From contig DATBTN010000009.1 in assembly GCA_036559195.1 (NCBI GenBank), positions 1 to 56,636 on the forward strand: DNA of 56,636 nucleotides. Direction: 5' to 3'. Both the position numbers and the translations under genes were made by a program. This DNA is from Candidatus Baltobacteraceae bacterium. Lineage in GTDB: Bacteria > Vulcanimicrobiota > Vulcanimicrobiia > Vulcanimicrobiales > Vulcanimicrobiaceae. Shown here one piece after another: positions 3,295-54,718 of the stretch; position 1 is the stretch's first letter; each line of letters starts with the position of its first letter. The notes under the pieces were generated by a model. That model saw nothing but the letters and a program-made list of their open reading frames with translations. It was not told where the DNA came from and ran no database searches.

Positions 3295-7935
<4,641 letters not shown>

Positions 7936-10383: not shown

Positions 10384-10525
10384 AGAATGGCACGCTTCCT
10401 TCGCAGTGGCCGGTTCGGGGTGAGCTCCGGGTGGGGGCCGTCTCTTAGACGCGGCCTCAACGTCCCCCCTTGTGGATTCACGACCTAATACCCGCCCGCC
10501 CAGGGCCGGGTTCCGAAATCTGGTC

Positions 10526-10551
10526 GAAAGGAGTATCCTTTCGCCGACCTA
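10526..10551 (+). promoter_or_regulatory. GAAAGG-nn-TATCCTTT-n-GCCGA element, copy 1
   Basis: Upstream of the membrane-protein gene at 10594 there is GAAAGGAGTATCCTTTCGCC, then GACCTA. It includes a perfect 8-bp palindrome CGAAAGGA / TCCTTTCG (10525-10532 with 10536-10543). A second copy with 19 of 22 identical bases lies at 36460. The GCCGA block resembles the -10 element of sigma-28/sigma-D promoters, but the spacing to the A-rich block is 17 rather than 19, so this reading is only a suggestion. Confidence 0.6.
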
Positions 10552-10593: not shown

Positions 10594-11133
10594 ATGAAGC
10601 GGATCGCGAAGCTAGCCGGCGCGCTGCTGCTCGGTTTGCCCGCCGCCGTTTTGGCGCACGCGGCGCTTTTCGGTCATGCCCACGTCCTGGCCGGTATTCA
10701 TCACAACGAAGTCGTTGAATCCGCCTCGTCGCTCGCCGCGGCCGTCGCCGTCACCATTGCCGTCGGCTGTCTGCTGGGAACGCGACGCGTCCAGAGCGGC
10801 TCGATCCTCGCCGCCTGCGCCACGGCATACCTGCCAGGTCCGCTCGCGCTCGCGCTCGCCGCATTGTGCTGGTTTACATCCCTCGAAGCGCTTGAGGGCC
10901 GCGGAATCGGACTCGCGGGTCTCGCCGCCGCGGTTCTCTGCGCGCTCCTGCTCACGCTGCTCGCCCGCGCCTTCGTGCGAACGTTCGCAGCGATCACCCT
11001 GCGGTTTACCGCGCTGCAGACGCGCAAGCGCGAACCGGCTCCCGTCAGCCTCACGGAGCACCGTGCGCCGAGGGCCACCTCGCGCCTCGCGCATACCCGC
11101 CGCTTCGCTCGTCCGCCTCCGGCCTTCGCGTAA
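10594..11133 (+). CDS. Small multi-pass inner-membrane protein, unknown function
   Basis: 179 residues. MKRIAKLAGALLLGLPAAVL is a first hydrophobic segment, followed by a His-containing loop (HAALFGHAHVLAGIHHNEVV), then helices at about 46-62, 72-90 and 104-130, and a basic, probably cytoplasmic tail rich in Arg and Pro. The His-rich loop could bind metal, which would suit the downstream TonB receptor and His/Met-rich protein, but this is an inference. I know no named family. It is preceded by the GAAAGG...CCTTT-GCCGA element. Confidence 0.7.
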   Translation: MKRIAKLAGALLLGLPAAVLAHAALFGHAHVLAGIHHNEVVESASSLAAAVAVTIAVGCLLGTRRVQSGSILAACATAYLPGPLALALAALCWFTSLEALEGRGIGLAGLAAAVLCALLLTLLARAFVRTFAAITLRFTALQTRKREPAPVSLTEHRAPRATSRLAHTRRFARPPPAFA

Positions 11134-11140
11134 CGCATCC

Positions 11141-11154
11141 GGCGCTTCGGCGCC
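11141..11154 (+). other. UUCG-capped hairpin in the TonB-receptor leader
   Basis: GGCGC-TTCG-GCGCC lies between the membrane-protein stop and the receptor start. It may be a weak attenuator or simply protect the processed mRNA; there is no T-tract. Confidence 0.4.
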
Positions 11155-11192
11155 AAGACTCCACTCCGTCTTTGCGTTTTCAGGAAGGTTTT

Positions 11193-13496
11193 ATGCGATA
11201 TTTTGCTGCGGCACTCATGGCCGCACTCTTCTGCTGTACGGGTCTACCCGCGATTGCAGCCACCACCGGCGTCGTGCGCGGGAATGTGATCGTCAACAAC
11301 GCGCCCAAAGCCGGCGTCGAACTCACGCTCAAGGCCGACGGGACCCTGCTCCAAACGACCTCCGATGCCGCGGGCAACTACATCTTCGCGCTCGTTCCGT
11401 TCGGCACGTACACGCTGGTGGCGCACTATTCGGGAGTGCCCGATAAGCGAGTCTCCCTCGATGTGAGTTCGGACTCGGTCTCCACGGTCAATCTCGCGCT
11501 CGGCGATCTGAAGATCATCGGCAGCGCGGCGGTTTCCGCGCGGGCCGGGGCCTCGGGGAATCCCGTCTCGGTCAATGCGATCGGCCGTCAAGAACTCGCC
11601 GCGCTGCCCACCAACAACAGCCTCAACAGCGTGGTACAGACCGTGCCGGGCATCGTAAAGTTCTCGTACGGTGAGCCCGTCGCGCACGGATTTCACGGAT
11701 TGAGCTACGAGATCGACGGCGCTCCGATTCCGCAGGCCACCAGTTCCAACTTTGCCGAGCTGATCGACCCGAAGAATATCGACTCGGTCGAAATCCTCAC
11801 CGGCGCGTTTCCGGCCGAATACGGCGGAAACCGCGAAGGCGCGGTCGTGAACATCGTGACCTCGCGCATCAACGATCTCACGCAGCCGTTTGCCGGTTCG
11901 ATCTCCGGCGGGGTAGGAAACTACGGTCAAACGCTCGCCAGTTTCGACACGGCATCCAAGTTCGGGAAGACCGAACTCTTCTTCAATGCCAACAGTCAGC
12001 GTAGCACGCGCGGTCTCGACACGCCCACGTTCAATCCGATCCACGACAACAGTTCGCAATCCGATCAATTCCTGCGCGTGATCGCGCCGATCGGCGCGCG
12101 CGACTCGCTCGGGTTCGACTTCTCAAACCAGCTCGCGCAGTTCCAAATTCCGATCAACACGAGCGCCAACAATCCGACCGACCCGCAGGTGAGCCTGCCG
12201 GGGACCGATGACGTGCAGCGTGAGTACGACCGGTATGCGAACCTCAATTTCACGGCCGTCTCGAAAGATGGAAACGGCGTCTTTCAATTCATCCCCTGGG
12301 CCCGCTACACGCGCATCGCCTACGAAGGGGATCTACACAACGACGTGCTCGCCACGCAGCCCGATCCGAGCACGGGCACGCCCACGAATCTGGTCGGGCT
12401 GCGGCAAGACCGCCGGGCCAGCTACGCCGGATTGCGCGTCTCCGATTTCCGGGCGCTCGCGCATCACTCGATCAAGGTCGGCATCGATCTCACCCACGAA
12501 TATTTCAACGCGGTGCAAACCTTCGCACAGGGCGGCCAGCCCAACGTCAACGAGAATGTTTCTCAACCTGGCTCCCAGATCGGCGTTTACGCCGAAGATA
12601 AGTGGTCGCCGTCCCGCGCGCTCTCCGTGAGCTACGGGCTGCGATACGATCACTCGACCGGCTTTACCGGCGGCAATCAACTGAGCCCGCGCATCGGCGT
12701 AAACGTCGCGCCGGACTCCAAGAACGTCGTACACTTCTACTACGGCCGCTTTTATGCGGCGCCGCAACTCGAGGACGTGCGCCAAGCCTGCGTGGCGCTT
12801 TCGGGCTGCCCGGCGATTCCGGTCTACGATCTTAAGCCGGAGACCGATTCGTACTTCGAGATGGGCGTCGCGCACACGTTCTCGCCGCGTCTTAACGGCT
12901 ACGTGAACTTCTTCGATCGTCGCGCCTCCAACGTGCTCGACACGACGCAGCTGCTCAACACGCCCCTCTTCGCGGTCTTCAACAACGCCATCGGGCGCGA
13001 CGAGGGCGTCGAGTTTCGACTTGCGGGCAGCGCCGGGATCGCCGATTCGTTCTTCCTCTCCGGCACGATCTCGCACGCCGAGGCGGCCGGCGTTTCGGGC
13101 TCGACGTTCCTCTTCGGCCCCAATCCCAACCCGCCCGGGCCGATCACGGCGGCGTCGTACCAGCCGGAGGATCACGATCAAACGTACGAGGCCAACGGCG
13201 CGTATACGCACCGTTTCGGGACCGATCGTACCTTCTTTGCGACGCTGCAAGGCGAGTACGGCACCGGGTATCCGGTGCAATTCCAGAGCGGCCCCGACCG
13301 GCTGCCGGCGCACCTCACCTTCGATCTGGCTTTGGGCAAAGAGGCCGGTAAGAACGGATCGCGCTCGCTCGGCTTCGACCTCGACGTTACCAACGTGCTC
13401 GATCATCAATACATCATCAAGATCGCCAACGGCTTCAACACCACGCAAGTCGCGAGCGGCCGTAACGTGTTGCTGCGAGTGACCGCGCCGTTTTAG
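11193..13496 (+). CDS. TonB-dependent outer-membrane receptor with carboxypeptidase-regulatory N-terminal domain
   Basis: 767 residues; ATG at 11193 follows CAGGAAGGTTTT. A signal peptide (MRYFAAALMAALFCCTGLPA) precedes a carboxypeptidase-D regulatory-like beta sandwich (about 28-105, GVVRGNVIVNNAPKAGVEL). Then comes the plug (about 135-235, with the VQTVPGIV and YEIDGAPIPQ features) and a beta barrel ending in a terminal aromatic strand LLRVTAPF. Such receptors import scarce ligands across the outer membrane using TonB-ExbB-ExbD energy. The substrate is unknown, but the next gene encodes a His/Met-rich secreted protein, so a metal, possibly copper, is plausible. Presence of this gene shows a diderm cell. 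Confidence 0.92.
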   Translation: MRYFAAALMAALFCCTGLPAIAATTGVVRGNVIVNNAPKAGVELTLKADGTLLQTTSDAAGNYIFALVPFGTYTLVAHYSGVPDKRVSLDVSSDSVSTVNLALGDLKIIGSAAVSARAGASGNPVSVNAIGRQELAALPTNNSLNSVVQTVPGIVKFSYGEPVAHGFHGLSYEIDGAPIPQATSSNFAELIDPKNIDSVEILTGAFPAEYGGNREGAVVNIVTSRINDLTQPFAGSISGGVGNYGQTLASFDTASKFGKTELFFNANSQRSTRGLDTPTFNPIHDNSSQSDQFLRVIAPIGARDSLGFDFSNQLAQFQIPINTSANNPTDPQVSLPGTDDVQREYDRYANLNFTAVSKDGNGVFQFIPWARYTRIAYEGDLHNDVLATQPDPSTGTPTNLVGLRQDRRASYAGLRVSDFRALAHHSIKVGIDLTHEYFNAVQTFAQGGQPNVNENVSQPGSQIGVYAEDKWSPSRALSVSYGLRYDHSTGFTGGNQLSPRIGVNVAPDSKNVVHFYYGRFYAAPQLEDVRQACVALSGCPAIPVYDLKPETDSYFEMGVAHTFSPRLNGYVNFFDRRASNVLDTTQLLNTPLFAVFNNAIGRDEGVEFRLAGSAGIADSFFLSGTISHAEAAGVSGSTFLFGPNPNPPGPITAASYQPEDHDQTYEANGAYTHRFGTDRTFFATLQGEYGTGYPVQFQSGPDRLPAHLTFDLALGKEAGKNGSRSLGFDLDVTNVLDHQYIIKIANGFNTTQVASGRNVLLRVTAPF

Positions 13497-13561
13497 TCCA
13501 ACTCTCGCTCGCGCTCGTCAACCTGGCGGTCGCGCTAGGGCTGCTCGTCCCGGGCGTTCCG

Positions 13562-14350
13562 GTGCTCGTCACCGGAGCGCGGGGCGGCAGCCCGGCGATT
13601 CGGGCACACCTGATCGCGAAGCCCGAACGCGATCCGCTCGTCGTGAATTTGAACGAGGTCGCGCGCGACGGGACGCGCGTCGTACGCGCATACGATTGGG
13701 ATATGACCAAACGCGTGCACTTGATCGTCGTGAGCGACGATCTGCACGCGTTCATGCACGTGCATCCGGTGTTGGGGGCAGACGGACATTTCCGGCTGCG
13801 GCTGCGGCTGCCGCACGCCGGTCTCTATCATTTGTACTACGACGGCGTCGCGCATGGTTTGGGGCGGCAGATCTTTCGCTTCGATCTGCCGGTCGCGCGG
13901 CCGGCGGTCGCGTTGGCGGCGCGACCGTTGGCGCCGACCTCGAATCTCGTGCGGGCGGGTCCCTATACGGTTCGGATAAGCCGCCTGACGATTCCGGTCG
14001 GCGAACCGGCGCTCTTTCACGTTGAGATCAGAAAAAACGGCAAACTCGCGACCGGCCTGCACCCGTACCTCGGCGCGATGGGGCACGGCGTGTTGATCGG
14101 GGCAGCCGACCTTTCATATCTGCACGTGCACGCGATGGACGCGATGATGATGGAGATGATGGGTACCGACGATTGCGGCGATGCGGTCATGTCGATGATG
14201 GCGCCGATTCCGCCCGACGCGCCGGTTTCGCCGAAGCTGCAATTCCTTATTGCGGCGCCGCGCGCGGGAGCCTACAAGTTCTGGCTGCAGTTTCGGGGCG
14301 GCGAGCGCAACTACGTCGCGTCGTGGACGCTGACGGCGAGAAGTTCGTAG
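13562..14350 (+). CDS. Exported His/Met-rich protein, probable copper handling
   Basis: 262 residues from GTG 13562. The same frame is open upstream to inside the receptor gene and encodes a hydrophobic, signal-like stretch (LSLALVNLAVALGLLVPGVP), so the true start may be a non-standard codon such as CTG at 13523. Two beta-sandwich-like halves contain paired histidines: HAFMHVHPVLG, LPHAGLYHLYYDG, then HPYLGAMGHGVL and YLHVHAMDAMMMEMMG. This PYLGAxGH...HVH arrangement is shared with secreted actinobacterial proteins found near copper genes. I infer soft-metal binding in the periplasm, in partnership with the preceding TonB receptor. Confidence 0.75.
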   Translation: MLVTGARGGSPAIRAHLIAKPERDPLVVNLNEVARDGTRVVRAYDWDMTKRVHLIVVSDDLHAFMHVHPVLGADGHFRLRLRLPHAGLYHLYYDGVAHGLGRQIFRFDLPVARPAVALAARPLAPTSNLVRAGPYTVRISRLTIPVGEPALFHVEIRKNGKLATGLHPYLGAMGHGVLIGAADLSYLHVHAMDAMMMEMMGTDDCGDAVMSMMAPIPPDAPVSPKLQFLIAAPRAGAYKFWLQFRGGERNYVASWTLTARSS

Positions 14351-18834: not shown

Positions 18835-19868
18835 CAGCGCGTTGGAGCGAAGAGGCGCGTCATCGGTACGACGCCCGCATCGTTTGCGTGCTGCAGATAG
18901 CGATGAATGCCGAACGCATCGTCGATCGTGCGCAAGAGCGAGTAGTGACTGTACGGCGTCGGATCGACGACGGCGCGCGGTCCGCGATTGGTGATCACGA
19001 TCGTTGAAATGTGGCCGCCGCCGGCGTTGGCCGGATCTTTGGGATTGGTCCCGCAGCAGCCCTGCGCGCCGTCGGCGTCGTCTTCGTCGAAGGTCACCAC
19101 GATTGCCGCGTTGCCGGGCTGTTTCCAGACCGGCGATGCCATGATTTCGTCCACGAGCGATTTGACGTGACGGTCGCCGCGCCGGATGAGCAGATGACCG
19201 TTGCGGCAGTCGGGCGGCGAATCACCTTCGCCGACGCCGTGCATGTCGTTACAGAGATTGGGGATGATTAGCGAGAAAGCCGGGACGGCTCCGCTATGCA
19301 GGTCGGCGTGCAGCCGATCGAAGCCCACGATATGGCCGGCTCGATTGGGATCGCGCCGAACCGAGGTGAACTCGATAAACCCCGAGTGTTTCGCCGCGTA
19401 GACGTACAGATCGGCGGGCAGATCGCTCGGGTGCGGATCGGTTGCGTAGGCCGCGAGCGAACCCGCTTTCGGCAGCGATTCGTTGTAATTTTTCCAGCTT
19501 ACCCCGGCGCCCGCGAATTGCGTAGCCAGCGACGGCGCGTCGATGGCGTGCGGTGCGTCGTCGACGATTCCGTACGTCGAGCCGCCAACGAGGGCGACGT
19601 AGTTCGGCTCGCTCGGATGCGATTCGGCATAGAATCGCGACGCATAGCCGTACGCATGCGCGAACGCGGTGATCGCCGGTGCGTCCGGCGAGTTGACGAT
19701 CTCTCCGTCGGATTTATTCTCATCCATAAGAACGAAGATATGGGCGTACCGCGGAAAGTGCAGATCGGCGGCCGACGGCGCCGCGTTCCCGGCCGGCGCG
19801 GTGCCCAGAGTCACGAGCAGCGCCGCCGCCGCTATGACGAGGCGTGAGGCGAGAAATCTCGATTGCAT
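18834..19868 (-). CDS. Secreted phosphoesterase (acid phosphatase / phospholipase C family)
   Basis: 344 residues, signal peptide to about residue 29 (ending GNAAPSAA). The phosphoesterase fold (PF04185) is shown by the early metal site HIFVLMDENKSDGEI, the SEPNYVALVGGSTYG segment, and the later VVTFDEDDAD with GGGHISTIVI and SHYSLLRTIDDAFG. This matches AcpA/phospholipase-C-like enzymes that release phosphate in the periplasm. It is the first gene of a three-gene overlapping operon with the MauE-like and TlpA-like genes; the functional reason for this pairing is not clear. Confidence 0.88.
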   Translation of the reverse strand: MQSRFLASRLVIAAAALLVTLGTAPAGNAAPSAADLHFPRYAHIFVLMDENKSDGEIVNSPDAPAITAFAHAYGYASRFYAESHPSEPNYVALVGGSTYGIVDDAPHAIDAPSLATQFAGAGVSWKNYNESLPKAGSLAAYATDPHPSDLPADLYVYAAKHSGFIEFTSVRRDPNRAGHIVGFDRLHADLHSGAVPAFSLIIPNLCNDMHGVGEGDSPPDCRNGHLLIRRGDRHVKSLVDEIMASPVWKQPGNAAIVVTFDEDDADGAQGCCGTNPKDPANAGGGHISTIVITNRGPRAVVDPTPYSHYSLLRTIDDAFGIHRYLQHANDAGVVPMTRLFAPTR

Positions 19869-20004
19869 TCGCCTATCTTCTCAAAAGACTCCTCAAGACC
19901 GCCTTAACGCAGGCCTCCGGGGCGACTTGTGCCGCATCCCGAGGGGCGCATATCGGGTATCCTCCTCTAGGCACCCTTTCAAACGCAACACGCGGAGGAG
20001 ACTC

Positions 20005-20589
20005 TTGGCGATCGGCCCTCGCTCGAACTCGCGGCTCGGAAAAGCGGTCGCCGCACTGATTTCGTGCGCGCTGCTCGCGGCTTGCGCTCGCGCAAGCAGC
20101 CCGGCGCTTCACGGAACCGCATACGTCCCGCCGCGCCCCGCACCCGAATTCGCCTTGCCCTCGACCGTCGGCAGGACGTTCGATCTTGCCAAAGCGCGCG
20201 GCCACCTCGTCGTGCTCTACTTTGGTTTCACGCACTGCGCCGACGTCTGCCCGCAGACGCTCGCCCACGTCGACGCAGCCATCCGAGCGGCGCAGACGCC
20301 GGCGGTTCGGCTCGTTTTCGCGAGCATCGATCCGCGTCGGGATTCGATCGCGGCCGAGCGGGCCTTTTTCGCACGAGCCGCCGTGCGCGCTATCGGCGTT
20401 ACCGGCACCGCCGCGCAACTGGCTCCGGTATGGAAGGCCTACGGCGTCTCGATCGCGCCGCAACTCCACGACATCGCGCATAGCGACTACCTCTACCTGA
20501 TCGATCCGAACGGATCGCTGCGCGAAGTGCTTCACGCCGACGTGCCGATCGCCGATCTCACCGCAGATTTGCGCGCGCTCGCATCGTGA
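20005..20589 (+). CDS. SCO1/SenC-family copper-thiol lipoprotein
   Basis: 194 residues from TTG 20005, chosen because GGAGGAG stands five bases upstream and the frame before it lacks a signal. The N-terminus leads to the lipobox LLAAC at about residue 30, so it is probably a lipoprotein. The thioredoxin fold carries the copper motif CADVCPQT (CxxxC), and the conserved His seems to lie in HDIAHSDYLYLIDP. Family role: delivering copper to the CuA site of cytochrome c oxidase, or thiol redox sensing. Its stop overlaps the ABC-F start (GTGA). Confidence 0.9.
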   Translation: MAIGPRSNSRLGKAVAALISCALLAACARASSPALHGTAYVPPRPAPEFALPSTVGRTFDLAKARGHLVVLYFGFTHCADVCPQTLAHVDAAIRAAQTPAVRLVFASIDPRRDSIAAERAFFARAAVRAIGVTGTAAQLAPVWKAYGVSIAPQLHDIAHSDYLYLIDPNGSLREVLHADVPIADLTADLRALAS

Positions 20590-22421: not shown

Positions 22422-23375
22422 ATGGGTTTTCTCCACACGCTCCTTCTGATGACCGCGATGCTGCCGATTCACGGCACCGTCCTCGGCTCGGCGAGCAATG
22501 GCACGGTTATCATCCGCAACGACCCCGTGACCGCAACGGTGCCCGCGCTGACCCGCGCCTACAACGTCGAGCCCAAGCTGCCCCTAAAACCGGGCGTCGG
22601 CATCGACGGCTTTTTGGACCGCTCGACGACTCCGTGGCGCTGGTACGATGCGGCCATCGCGGCGAAATTCACGCCGGGGCTCCCCGACCCGGGCAAGGTC
22701 AATTCGCTCGATTTCGGCTCGCACGTTCCGCAGACGCGACTCGTCGATCAAAACGGCAAGCTCGTCGATCTCGCGAGTTCGTTCCCGGGCAAAGTCCAGC
22801 TGATCAGCTTCGTCTTCACCCGCTGTCCAGATAAAGACGAATGCCCGCTCGTGAGCGCCAAGTTCGGCGAGTTGCAGCGCCAGCTCGATCCGGCGAAATT
22901 TCACCTCGTGCTCGTAAGCCTCGATCCGGTCTACGATTCGCCGGCGATCCTCAAGCGCTACGGCAAACAATTCGGCGCGAACCCCGCATCGTGGTCGCTC
23001 GTCACCGGGCAGCCCGCGCAGATCCAGCACCTGCTCAACCGCTTCGGCATCTCGTCGATGCGCGTGAGCGACGCGAACTTCATCCACAACGATAAGGTCT
23101 TCCTCATCGATCAACGCGGCGCGATCGCCGACGTCGTCGACACCCTGGGCTGGTCGCCCAATTCGATGGTCGCCGAAGCGCGCCACACCGCCGGCCTCGT
23201 CTCCAGTCCGCTCGGCCGCTTCCAGCTCTCCCTCATCGCAAGCGTCGTCGCCCTCTGCGGCGGCAGCCAATACTCGGGTGTCGTCCTCCTCGAAACGGTC
23301 CTCTTCTTACTGATCGCCGCCGCCTCGTTCGTAACCCTCAGCTGGGTAGCCCGCAAACTCTGGAAGAACGCTTAG
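22422..23375 (+). CDS. Second SCO1/SenC-like protein, membrane-anchored with long extensions
   Basis: 317 residues. A signal peptide (MGFLHTLLLMTAMLPIHGTV) is followed by an unusual 90-residue N-terminal extension, a thioredoxin/SCO domain (about 100-260) and a C-terminal helix (VVLLETVLFLLIAAASFVTL). The cysteine pair is TRCPDKDECP, CX5C spacing, a known variant of the CX3C copper motif. The candidate copper His lies near ANFIHNDKVFLID. It lies 13 bases after the ABC-F gene, so two SCO paralogues flank an ABC-F gene in one operon. Confidence 0.85.
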   Translation: MGFLHTLLLMTAMLPIHGTVLGSASNGTVIIRNDPVTATVPALTRAYNVEPKLPLKPGVGIDGFLDRSTTPWRWYDAAIAAKFTPGLPDPGKVNSLDFGSHVPQTRLVDQNGKLVDLASSFPGKVQLISFVFTRCPDKDECPLVSAKFGELQRQLDPAKFHLVLVSLDPVYDSPAILKRYGKQFGANPASWSLVTGQPAQIQHLLNRFGISSMRVSDANFIHNDKVFLIDQRGAIADVVDTLGWSPNSMVAEARHTAGLVSSPLGRFQLSLIASVVALCGGSQYSGVVLLETVLFLLIAAASFVTLSWVARKLWKNA

Positions 23376-36429: not shown

Positions 36430-36459
36430 TTCAAAATATTGGATAAGAGGGCGCGGCAC

Positions 36460-36485
36460 GAAAGGTCTATCCTTTGGCCGAACCT
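36460..36485 (+). promoter_or_regulatory. GAAAGG-nn-TATCCTTT-n-GCCGA element, copy 2
   Basis: GAAAGGTCTATCCTTTGGCC followed by GAACCTA stands 16 bases before the STAS start codon. Compared with copy 1 at 10526, 19 of the first 22 positions are identical, and the three differences lie exactly at the spacer positions. The arms AAAGG and CCTTT are complementary. Confidence 0.6.
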
Positions 36486-54074: not shown

Positions 54075-54718
54075 GCTTCGATGTGCGATTCGAGTTCCGC
54101 GCCGGTCCGCGCATCGACGACGCGCGTGCGCACGGGCTTGGGCGGCCAGAATAGCACGAGCGTCAGCACGAATCCGGCAATCAGCCCGGCGAGATGTTCT
54201 TGCTTCGAGATCATCGGCACCGCGAACGTGATGATCAGATTGATCGCGAGCAATCCAATGTTCGCTTTGATCAGCTGCATGCCGGGTTTGCCGAGTTTGA
54301 ATCCGATTGCGAAGAGCGCCCCAAAGAGACCGAAGATCGCGCCGCTGGCGCCGAGCGTCGGAATATCCGGCTGCGAGAAATAGACGGCGCCGAGCCCCGC
54401 GCAGAGCAAGGAGACGGCATAAATGAGGGCCATCTTCGCGCCGCCGACGGCGCTCTCGATGAATCGCCCGAGCGAGTAGAGGGAGATCATGTTCACGCCG
54501 ATGTGAATGATGCTGGCGTGCAAGAATCCGCTCGTGACGATACGCCACCACTGGTTATCCTGCGTGACGAGAAACGGTACGAGCGCGCCATCGCGCACGA
54601 TCGTGCCGTTGGTAATGTTGCCGCTCAACACGCCGCCGCCCGAACTCACGATCTCGTACAAAAATGCGAGCACGTTGACGATGATCAGCACCCGCGTGAC
54701 GGTTGCGCGTTGGCTCAG
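54071..54718 (-). CDS. Rhomboid-family intramembrane serine protease
   Basis: Six helices with the catalytic serine in LGASGAIFGLFGALF and the His in KQEHLAGLIAGF, preceded by the NxxxN/HxGxN region SIIHIGVNMISLYSLG. From the CTG at 54718, which overlaps the mntR stop as CTGA, the protein is 215 residues and begins (M)SQRATVTRVLIIVNVLAF, the normal rhomboid N-terminus. The GTG at 54691 (206 residues) removes the basic cytoplasmic segment. There is no ATG. Cleaves membrane substrates. Confidence 0.88.
   Translation of the reverse strand: MSQRATVTRVLIIVNVLAFLYEIVSSGGGVLSGNITNGTIVRDGALVPFLVTQDNQWWRIVTSGFLHASIIHIGVNMISLYSLGRFIESAVGGAKMALIYAVSLLCAGLGAVYFSQPDIPTLGASGAIFGLFGALFAIGFKLGKPGMQLIKANIGLLAINLIITFAVPMISKQEHLAGLIAGFVLTLVLFWPPKPVRTRVVDARTGAELESHIEA

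Follow-up and report, generated by a model that had tools for sequence, protein, structure and literature searches.

A predicted four-helix membrane protein ending in RPPP as a putative translation-arrest leader of a candidate copper-acquisition operon in the Vulcanimicrobiaceae

CruR (145 amino acids) is described as the first product of the BfrG/CrtA operon of Bordetella pertussis, and the TonB receptor gene is reportedly no longer expressed once the RAPP motif of CruR is changed (PMC9426467); CrtA is described as an importer of a copper chelate for respiratory oxidases (PMC12914433). In Rhodobacter capsulatus, CutF precedes cutO, the Shine–Dalgarno (SD) sequence of which is reported to be hidden by a stem (PMC9973294). 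According to a survey of RAPP and RGPP leaders, these are enriched before TonB-receptor, YcnI and PCuAC genes; the same source describes arrest for CruR and for seven Streptomyces lividans proteins (among these a protein of four membrane segments for which a copper site is predicted) and partial retention of arrest in ApdA and ApdP when proline replaces alanine (PMC12992588). Structures of RAPP-stalled ribosomes have been reported (PMC10951233). Here, these systems are compared with a locus on contig DATBTN010000009.1 (C9; 56,636 nucleotides) of a Candidatus Baltobacteraceae bacterium (assembly GCA_036559195.1). The entire contig, part of a 2.48 Mb draft genome that is 97% complete, was analysed and is called the window. 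Three consecutive genes had been proposed in a first-pass annotation as a candidate importer of copper or a related metal; they are present in succession on the plus strand, with corrected starts for the second and third.

10594–11133, plus strand: P1, a predicted four-helix membrane protein of 179 amino acids; proposed metal-sensing arrest leader
11110–11121, plus strand: codons for R173-P174-P175-P176 of P1; R[P/A]PP in 64/64 complete homologues
11121–11127, plus strand: left stem arm GGCCUUC, inside the end of P1; 7 base pairs, two of them G–U
11182–11188, plus strand: SD sequence AGGAAGG of TB; the right stem arm is 11184–11190
11193–13496, plus strand: TB, a TonB-dependent receptor with CarboxypepD_reg, plug and barrel domains
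13466–14350, plus strand: P3, rich in Met and His and probably exported; GTG at 13562 is the first usual start

We consider it likely, with some reservation, that these genes form a copper-acquisition operon headed by P1 as a nascent-chain regulator. By analogy, the most fitting interpretation of P1 is a translation-arrest leader that would work like CruR and CutF; arrest, copper sensing and the direction of control are what we infer, as are the membrane topology, the ligand of the receptor and the place of P3. Gene content, linkage, conservation of the motif and co-variation of the RNA arms are observed directly. A copper-uptake neighbourhood is thus still the best reading of the supposed importer, but P1 itself is probably no part of a transporter and looks like a regulatory arrest leader. 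This kind of control is known from other bacteria and is here apparently built on a different four-helix membrane protein.

Like CruR as described (PMC9426467, PMC12914433), P1 is first in its operon and carries a C-terminal arrest-type RxPP motif near the stop codon at a near-fixed spacing to a putative metal site, with a TonB receptor next and links to copper and respiratory oxidases. Unlike CruR, which is assigned to DUF2946, P1 lacks CxxC and any DUF2946 profile match over the cut-off, has four predicted helices with His/Glu and ends mostly in RPPP. The gap between P1 and TB is 26–69 nt in 50 of 52 pairs (a misassigned start and an intervening gene account for the other two) and pairing of the P1 end with the SD sequence is possible, whereas for CruR a distance of 162 bp and action through Rho termination are reported; the third gene is P3 here and PepSY_TM in the CruR operon. 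With CutF, P1 shares a proline-rich end, a putative SD-hiding RNA stem and copper genes downstream; CutF, however, is described as belonging to DUF2946, having a Sec signal and a CxxxC motif and being induced by copper (PMC9973294), whereas in P1 the left arm lies inside the leader's own last codons and the proposed sensor is a membrane protein. SLIV_18480 of S. lividans is likewise small, with a C-terminal RxPP and a metal-related next gene, and four membrane segments and a His/Met copper site are described as predicted for it (PMC12992588); it is likened to P1 by description, not by sequence. In the RAPP/RGPP survey, the leaders of TonB receptors are almost all reported to carry a signal sequence, unlike P1, and RPPP members fall outside this survey because it used RAPP and RGPP (PMC12992588). 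Membership of P1 in DUF2946 was considered and rejected: the 16 P1 homologues gave no match to PF11162 at E ≤ 1, this profile exceeded the cut-off in 0/99 genomes (two weak matches lay away from P1 places), and CxxC occurs in 1/65 homologues. The spacing of the C-terminal motif in P1 was measured to ExxE, not to CxxC. A literature search found no report of an arrest peptide for Eremiobacterota, which is not proof that none is in print; the papers found on copper arrest peptides and TonB receptors do not name the phylum in their titles or abstract openings.

A scan of 84,980 species with the pattern [RTY]RRFARPPP, together with tblastn, gave 15 loci, 14 of which are labelled Candidatus Eremiobacterota or Eremiobacteria. 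With a profile built from 16 P1 members, matches were obtained in 65 of the 149 phylum genomes; 63 of these genomes belong to the same family as the window, and the matches in the other two are weak and partial. A further weak match (L124), which the profile did not confirm, was excluded from the 65 homologues. The membrane protein had been called unfamiliar, in agreement with the lack of any Pfam or NCBIfam match over the cut-off (best Pfam match Rce1-like, E = 0.014). Residues G14, H22, G27, H30, G34, G69, P81, E98, E101, R146 and R173–P176 are invariant in the 16 aligned homologues, and H37 is nearly so. The AlphaFold2 model (15 rows; mean pLDDT 82.9, pTM 0.70) places helices at residues 2–26, 37–62, 83–101 and 107–144, followed by a low-confidence tail from residue 145, and matched no solved structure at E ≤ 0.001; the conserved His/Glu of the modelled helices could bind a metal, presumably copper. 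The tail is Arg-rich (means of 7.2 R+K and 0.8 D+E over the 29 residues ahead of the motif, n = 50). Positively charged stretches are found on the cytoplasmic side of membranes (the positive-inside rule), which suggests that the tail is cytoplasmic. The clustered His/Met that had been noted for two of the genes was upheld for P3, which has the densest cluster of the 50 called window proteins (11 His+Met per 30 residues, rank 1), but P1 ranks only 15th (5 in 30 residues), though H22 and H30 are invariant; TB is not rich (rank 41).

Among the 64 complete homologues the C-terminal motif is RPPP in 56 and RAPP in 8 (the 65th is cut by a contig end), 1–17 residues from the stop, so that an RxPP near the C-terminus of a small protein, membrane-type according to the modelled helices, is found throughout. 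In 50 non-redundant tails the R, P and P are present at 100% and all other tail positions at 76% or less. The spacing from ExxE to RPPP is 75–81 in 56/56 homologues and 77–78 in 48. By comparison, R[AP]PP occurs within the last 25 residues of 5/753 other called genes, several of which are leaders of the families c43 and c53 treated below. The three residues after the motif Arg are encoded by 23 codon combinations, and it is therefore the protein sequence that is conserved, not RNA alone.

Base pairing between the P1 end and the SD sequence of the next gene is possible across the 63 leaders. Examples of left/right arms are CTCCGATC/GATCGGAG, CTCCCCC/GGGGGAG, CTCCCGTC/GACGGGAG, CTCCTCGG/CCGAGGAG and CCTACGATCG/CGATCGTAGG, as well as CCTCCGGTCG/CGACCGGAGG before a gene of family c24 and TCCTCCGG/CCGGAGGA before CopC–CopD. 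Because proline codons are C-rich and SD sequences are G-rich, each left arm was compared with its own right arm and with those of other leaders, using 20,000 permutations. Own arms beat swapped arms for the receptor leaders (30 representatives; z = −6.6, 0/20,000), for 13 other targets (11 representatives; z = −2.55, 145/20,000), for all leaders (40 representatives; z = −7.6, 0/20,000) and when only bases outside the proline codons and the SD core were used (45 representatives; z = −4.6, 0/20,000); stricter removal of near-copies gave 0 and 2/20,000 for full arms and 23 and 19/20,000 for the outside bases. No arm co-variation was detected in 103 adjacent gene pairs used as controls (z = −0.87, 3856/20,000) or in 58 SD-bearing pairs selected by the start rule for P1 neighbours (z = +1.12, 17434/20,000). 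Watson–Crick runs of at least seven were found in 34/63 leaders, compared with 3/100 and 2/58 controls. In partition-function folding the SD sequence was paired at >0.5 with the last 14 P1 codons in 53/63 leaders and in 5/37 controls, these being the 37 of the 103 control pairs that had a recognizable SD sequence. Computationally, the pairing is thus supported by co-variation across the family.

For the genomic context, 80 regions around P1 and P3 places plus 20 around P3 were fetched, genes were called and clustered and the profiles were rebuilt; the caller was a simple codon-bias program built for this analysis and some starts are misplaced. TB directly follows P1 on the same strand in 51/65 profile-confirmed cases, with 66–124 bp between profile ends, and the P1–TB–P3 triple is present in six genera of the family. 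There are 13 non-TB cases with another same-strand ORF downstream of P1 (one further case is at a contig end), and in ten of them a copper-type gene follows: P1 is succeeded by c24 and then CopC and CopD (six), a CopC–CopD fusion (two), SCO (one), the cytochrome-c-like family c18 (two, one then followed by a multicopper oxidase), a 122-residue protein of no assigned type (one, with TB 446 bp past P1) or a 17-codon open reading frame (one, with P3 further on). A strong CopC gene lies within 6 kb of P1 at 10/69 places (0.09 expected), which accounts for 9/18 strong CopC genes; P3 is near P1 at 7/69 places (0.21 expected) and an SCO gene lies within 12 kb at at least 19/69 (0.9 expected). The expected counts assume genomes of 2.8 Mb, and 7/69 P1 places, being partial or weak, were not fetched. 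The first-pass annotation had named a lack of co-occurrence across genomes as the outcome that would speak against it; P1 is linked both to the receptor and to copper genes, with CopC and SCO above expectation, and the genes therefore do co-occur.

Some of these neighbours are of interest in themselves. The c24 protein (about 300 residues; L090:6628–7539, L092:5063–5986, L105:2364–3269) replaces the receptor after P1, before CopC–CopD; the one member scanned had no Pfam match. Family c18 (L110:3006–4733, L087:9024–10751) combines an N-terminal CxxCH with a cytochrome c domain and adjoins P1–TB and multicopper oxidase. The 17-codon ORF (L097, after P1 at 5926–6540 on the plus strand) starts with MFRI, which resembles receptor starts, and is possibly a receptor remnant. 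A single ORF at L101:6191–8626 (plus strand) joins CopC and CopD to a signal peptidase S26 domain.

When the last 28 residues were searched for R[APGS]PP or RAGP, 7/753 non-P1 genes were retrieved, five of which belong to c43 (n = 3; ending RAPP, RAPP and RGPP) and c53 (n = 2; ending RPPP). Judged by eye from their sequences, both appear to be hydrophobic, membrane-type proteins. The members of the two families are as follows.

L101:5293–5937, minus strand: c43 member
L101:13176–14060, plus strand: c43/c53 member
L081:8329–8994, plus strand: c43/c53 member
L068:11321–11896, minus strand: c43/c53 member
L079:6846–7508, minus strand: c43/c53 member

The gene that follows encodes a redoxin-family protein at L081, a TonB receptor at L068 and at L079 and, at the two L101 loci, SCO and a TonB receptor carrying secreted repeats. 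The ends of the c43 and c53 members pair with the next SD sequence in runs of 6–8 bases (at least seven in 4/5). At L101:5293–5937 the start used opens 14 codons only and the SCO frame begins 48 bases later; the pairing in this SCO case is doubtful because its start is unclear. Profile comparison gave a probability of 33 (E = 5e-4) for P1 against c43 and of 3 for P1 against c53, and c43 may be distant kin of P1. It is tentatively suggested, as a proposal about which we remain somewhat doubtful, that portable leader cassettes (P1 and, more rarely, c43 and c53) govern copper genes in the family: multi-helix membrane proteins ending in R[P/A/G]PP that would sense metal during their own synthesis and the own end codons of which would lock the next start, placed before receptors, CopC–CopD, SCO and cytochrome or oxidase genes. 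The TonB receptor at L101:14108–16099 (plus strand) is fused to an N-terminal secreted-repeat domain, PF03640 (`unknown function').

The identification of the second of the three genes as a TonB receptor was confirmed by matches over the cut-off to PF07715 (plug) and PF00593 (barrel). Its start is most likely ATG 11193, after AGGAAGG, rather than TTG 11172, and the nearest solved structures by profile were 9gbc and the colicin I receptor. In P3, the in-frame stretch 13466–13561 upstream of the GTG is signal-peptide-like and lacks ATG, GTG and TTG; a rare start codon, a sequence error or decay are possible explanations. The window P3 gave no Pfam match at E ≤ 1 (including CopC, PCuAC and YtkA) and no NCBIfam match, while the YtkA profile was weakly matched by 3/17 relatives (best E = 0.021); matches to polyubiquitin-chain profiles were rejected as a repeat artefact with no single passing stretch. 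A model of P3 predicted from its sequence alone was of poor quality (mean pLDDT 41). Among 17 aligned members, five His positions do not vary, and the five-member subclade of the window P3 shares a Met-rich loop with DCGD. A 100/99 branch divides the P3 tree (48 rows) into one side of 22 rows (10 P1/copper, 11 other, 1 ZnuA-linked) and another of 26 (20 ZnuA-linked, 6 other), which includes this genome's second P3 (contig C20). The window P3 lies on the copper-linked side, inside a five-row set (99/99) that contains two P1/copper loci, and CopC is near P3 at 3/54 places (0.06 expected). The linkage of the P3 family is divided, some loci being copper-linked and others ZnuA-linked (the window P3 is on the copper side), so that the earlier hedge of a `related metal' was fair. 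The ZnuA-adjacent clade (L143, L144, L146, L147, L165–L179) resembles a zinc-side equivalent of the copper-linked P3.

Further features of the window were as follows; the SCO-type proteins that had been noted nearby were both recovered with PF02630.

10525–10543, no strand: palindrome CGAAAGGA-GTA-TCCTTTCG ahead of P1; may be an operator or a promoter element
19669–20589, plus strand: SCO1/SenC protein (PF02630); ORF start uncertain
22422–23375, plus strand: second SCO1/SenC protein (PF02630)

A shared promoter-like motif had been mentioned without being specified. The palindrome CGAAAGGAGTATCCTTTCG at 10525–10543 has a relative at 36459–36477, and beyond it no longer promoter motif in common with P1 was found within the window. 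The core AAAGGNNTATCCTTT has exactly two copies in the draft genome (at most one mismatch; reversed control 0), which precede P1 (copy at 10525–10543) and a STAS-domain gene (copy at 36459–36477). A search for riboswitches and known RNAs near P1 (8000–19000) gave three matches up to E = 1, all far under the gathering score. A DtxR/MntR-type iron-dependent repressor with a FeoA domain is encoded on the same contig at 54715–55389, and the genome contains two COX1 and two ExbD genes over the cut-off.

In the proposed mechanism, P1 would insert into the inner membrane during synthesis, where its conserved His/Glu could take up the metal. Once the ribosome arrives at the R-P-P-P codons, the 28-residue stretch that separates the motif from the last helix would occupy the exit tunnel and translation would pause, as the motif suggests. 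The end of the P1 message would pair with the SD sequence of the next gene, a pairing for which co-variation argues; a paused ribosome would cover its stretch of the stem, which should free the receptor start and allow the receptor to be made. Binding of metal, or folding of P1, would end the pause and the start would be locked again. With the sign borrowed from CruR, the system would be on when copper is scarce. The receptor would move free or chelated copper through the outer membrane, P3 may retain it in the periplasm and the two SCO proteins, 5–8 kb past P3, would serve the heme-copper oxidases of the genome.

Several results weigh against this reading. The stem in the window is weak (five Watson–Crick and two G–U pairs, with a longest Watson–Crick run of five) and the window is among the weaker cases, its SD sequence being already 0.46 free (leader fold z = −2.32); in 10/63 leaders the pairing of the SD sequence with the P1 end does not exceed 0.5. 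Masking the footprint of a stalled ribosome had only a modest effect on the predicted SD freedom (an increase from 0.09 to 0.23 in 50 receptor leaders and from 0.03 to 0.19 in the 13 others, with a gain of more than 0.3 in 11/63), and the release step is therefore weakly explained by a simple folding model. None of the 22 NCBIfam matches of TB is a copper-receptor model. The nearness of P1 and SCO partly reflects one conserved gene order and is for this reason weaker evidence than the next-gene swaps. ZnuA lies within 6 kb of P1 at 2/69 places (0.25 expected) and within 6 kb of P3 at 20/54 (0.22 expected), and Fur-family genes recur near several P1–TB loci and Nramp near several P3 or TB loci. 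These neighbours would suit a unit of the Zur type handling zinc or manganese instead of copper, which we nevertheless regard as unlikely: the window P3 belongs to the other P3 clade, P1 favours CopC over ZnuA in the counts given above and the 97% complete genome has no ZnuA match.

P1 might also be a working inner-membrane part of the importer, such as a permease or metal-handling subunit through which metal is passed inward, with C-terminal RPPP as a protein-interaction or folding signal. Conserved His/Glu in or near the predicted helices and constant linkage to the receptor are consistent with such a role, and 179 residues are long for a pure leader, though 145 are given for CruR (PMC9426467); yet conservation in P1 is highest at the very tip of the low-confidence tail, P1 directly precedes different kinds of gene, and the pairing of its end with the SD sequence co-varies while that of control neighbours does not. 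An importer part is accordingly given a low probability; it would be compatible with a leader role and P1 could be both. Pure translational coupling, in which the ribosome finishing P1 opens the receptor start with neither arrest nor sensing, would account for the overlap of the stem with both the P1 end and the SD sequence and for the short P1–TB gaps, but it leaves the universal R[P/A]PP and the near-fixed distance to ExxE unexplained; the proline codons vary while the prolines stay, control neighbours are without such pairing, and we hold this explanation to be very improbable.

Copper-responsive arrest leaders are known from few cases and are predicted by RAPP/RGPP surveys. If the reading of P1 as an arrest leader is correct, it would add a different sensor, with four predicted membrane helices and His/Glu, and an RPPP motif that such surveys omit. 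The arrest end of the protein and the RNA lock would then share the same codons, with the controlled gene naturally swapped. It would also predict a copper-import route in a poorly studied phylum and would provide a concrete function for a membrane protein present in 63 genomes of one family.

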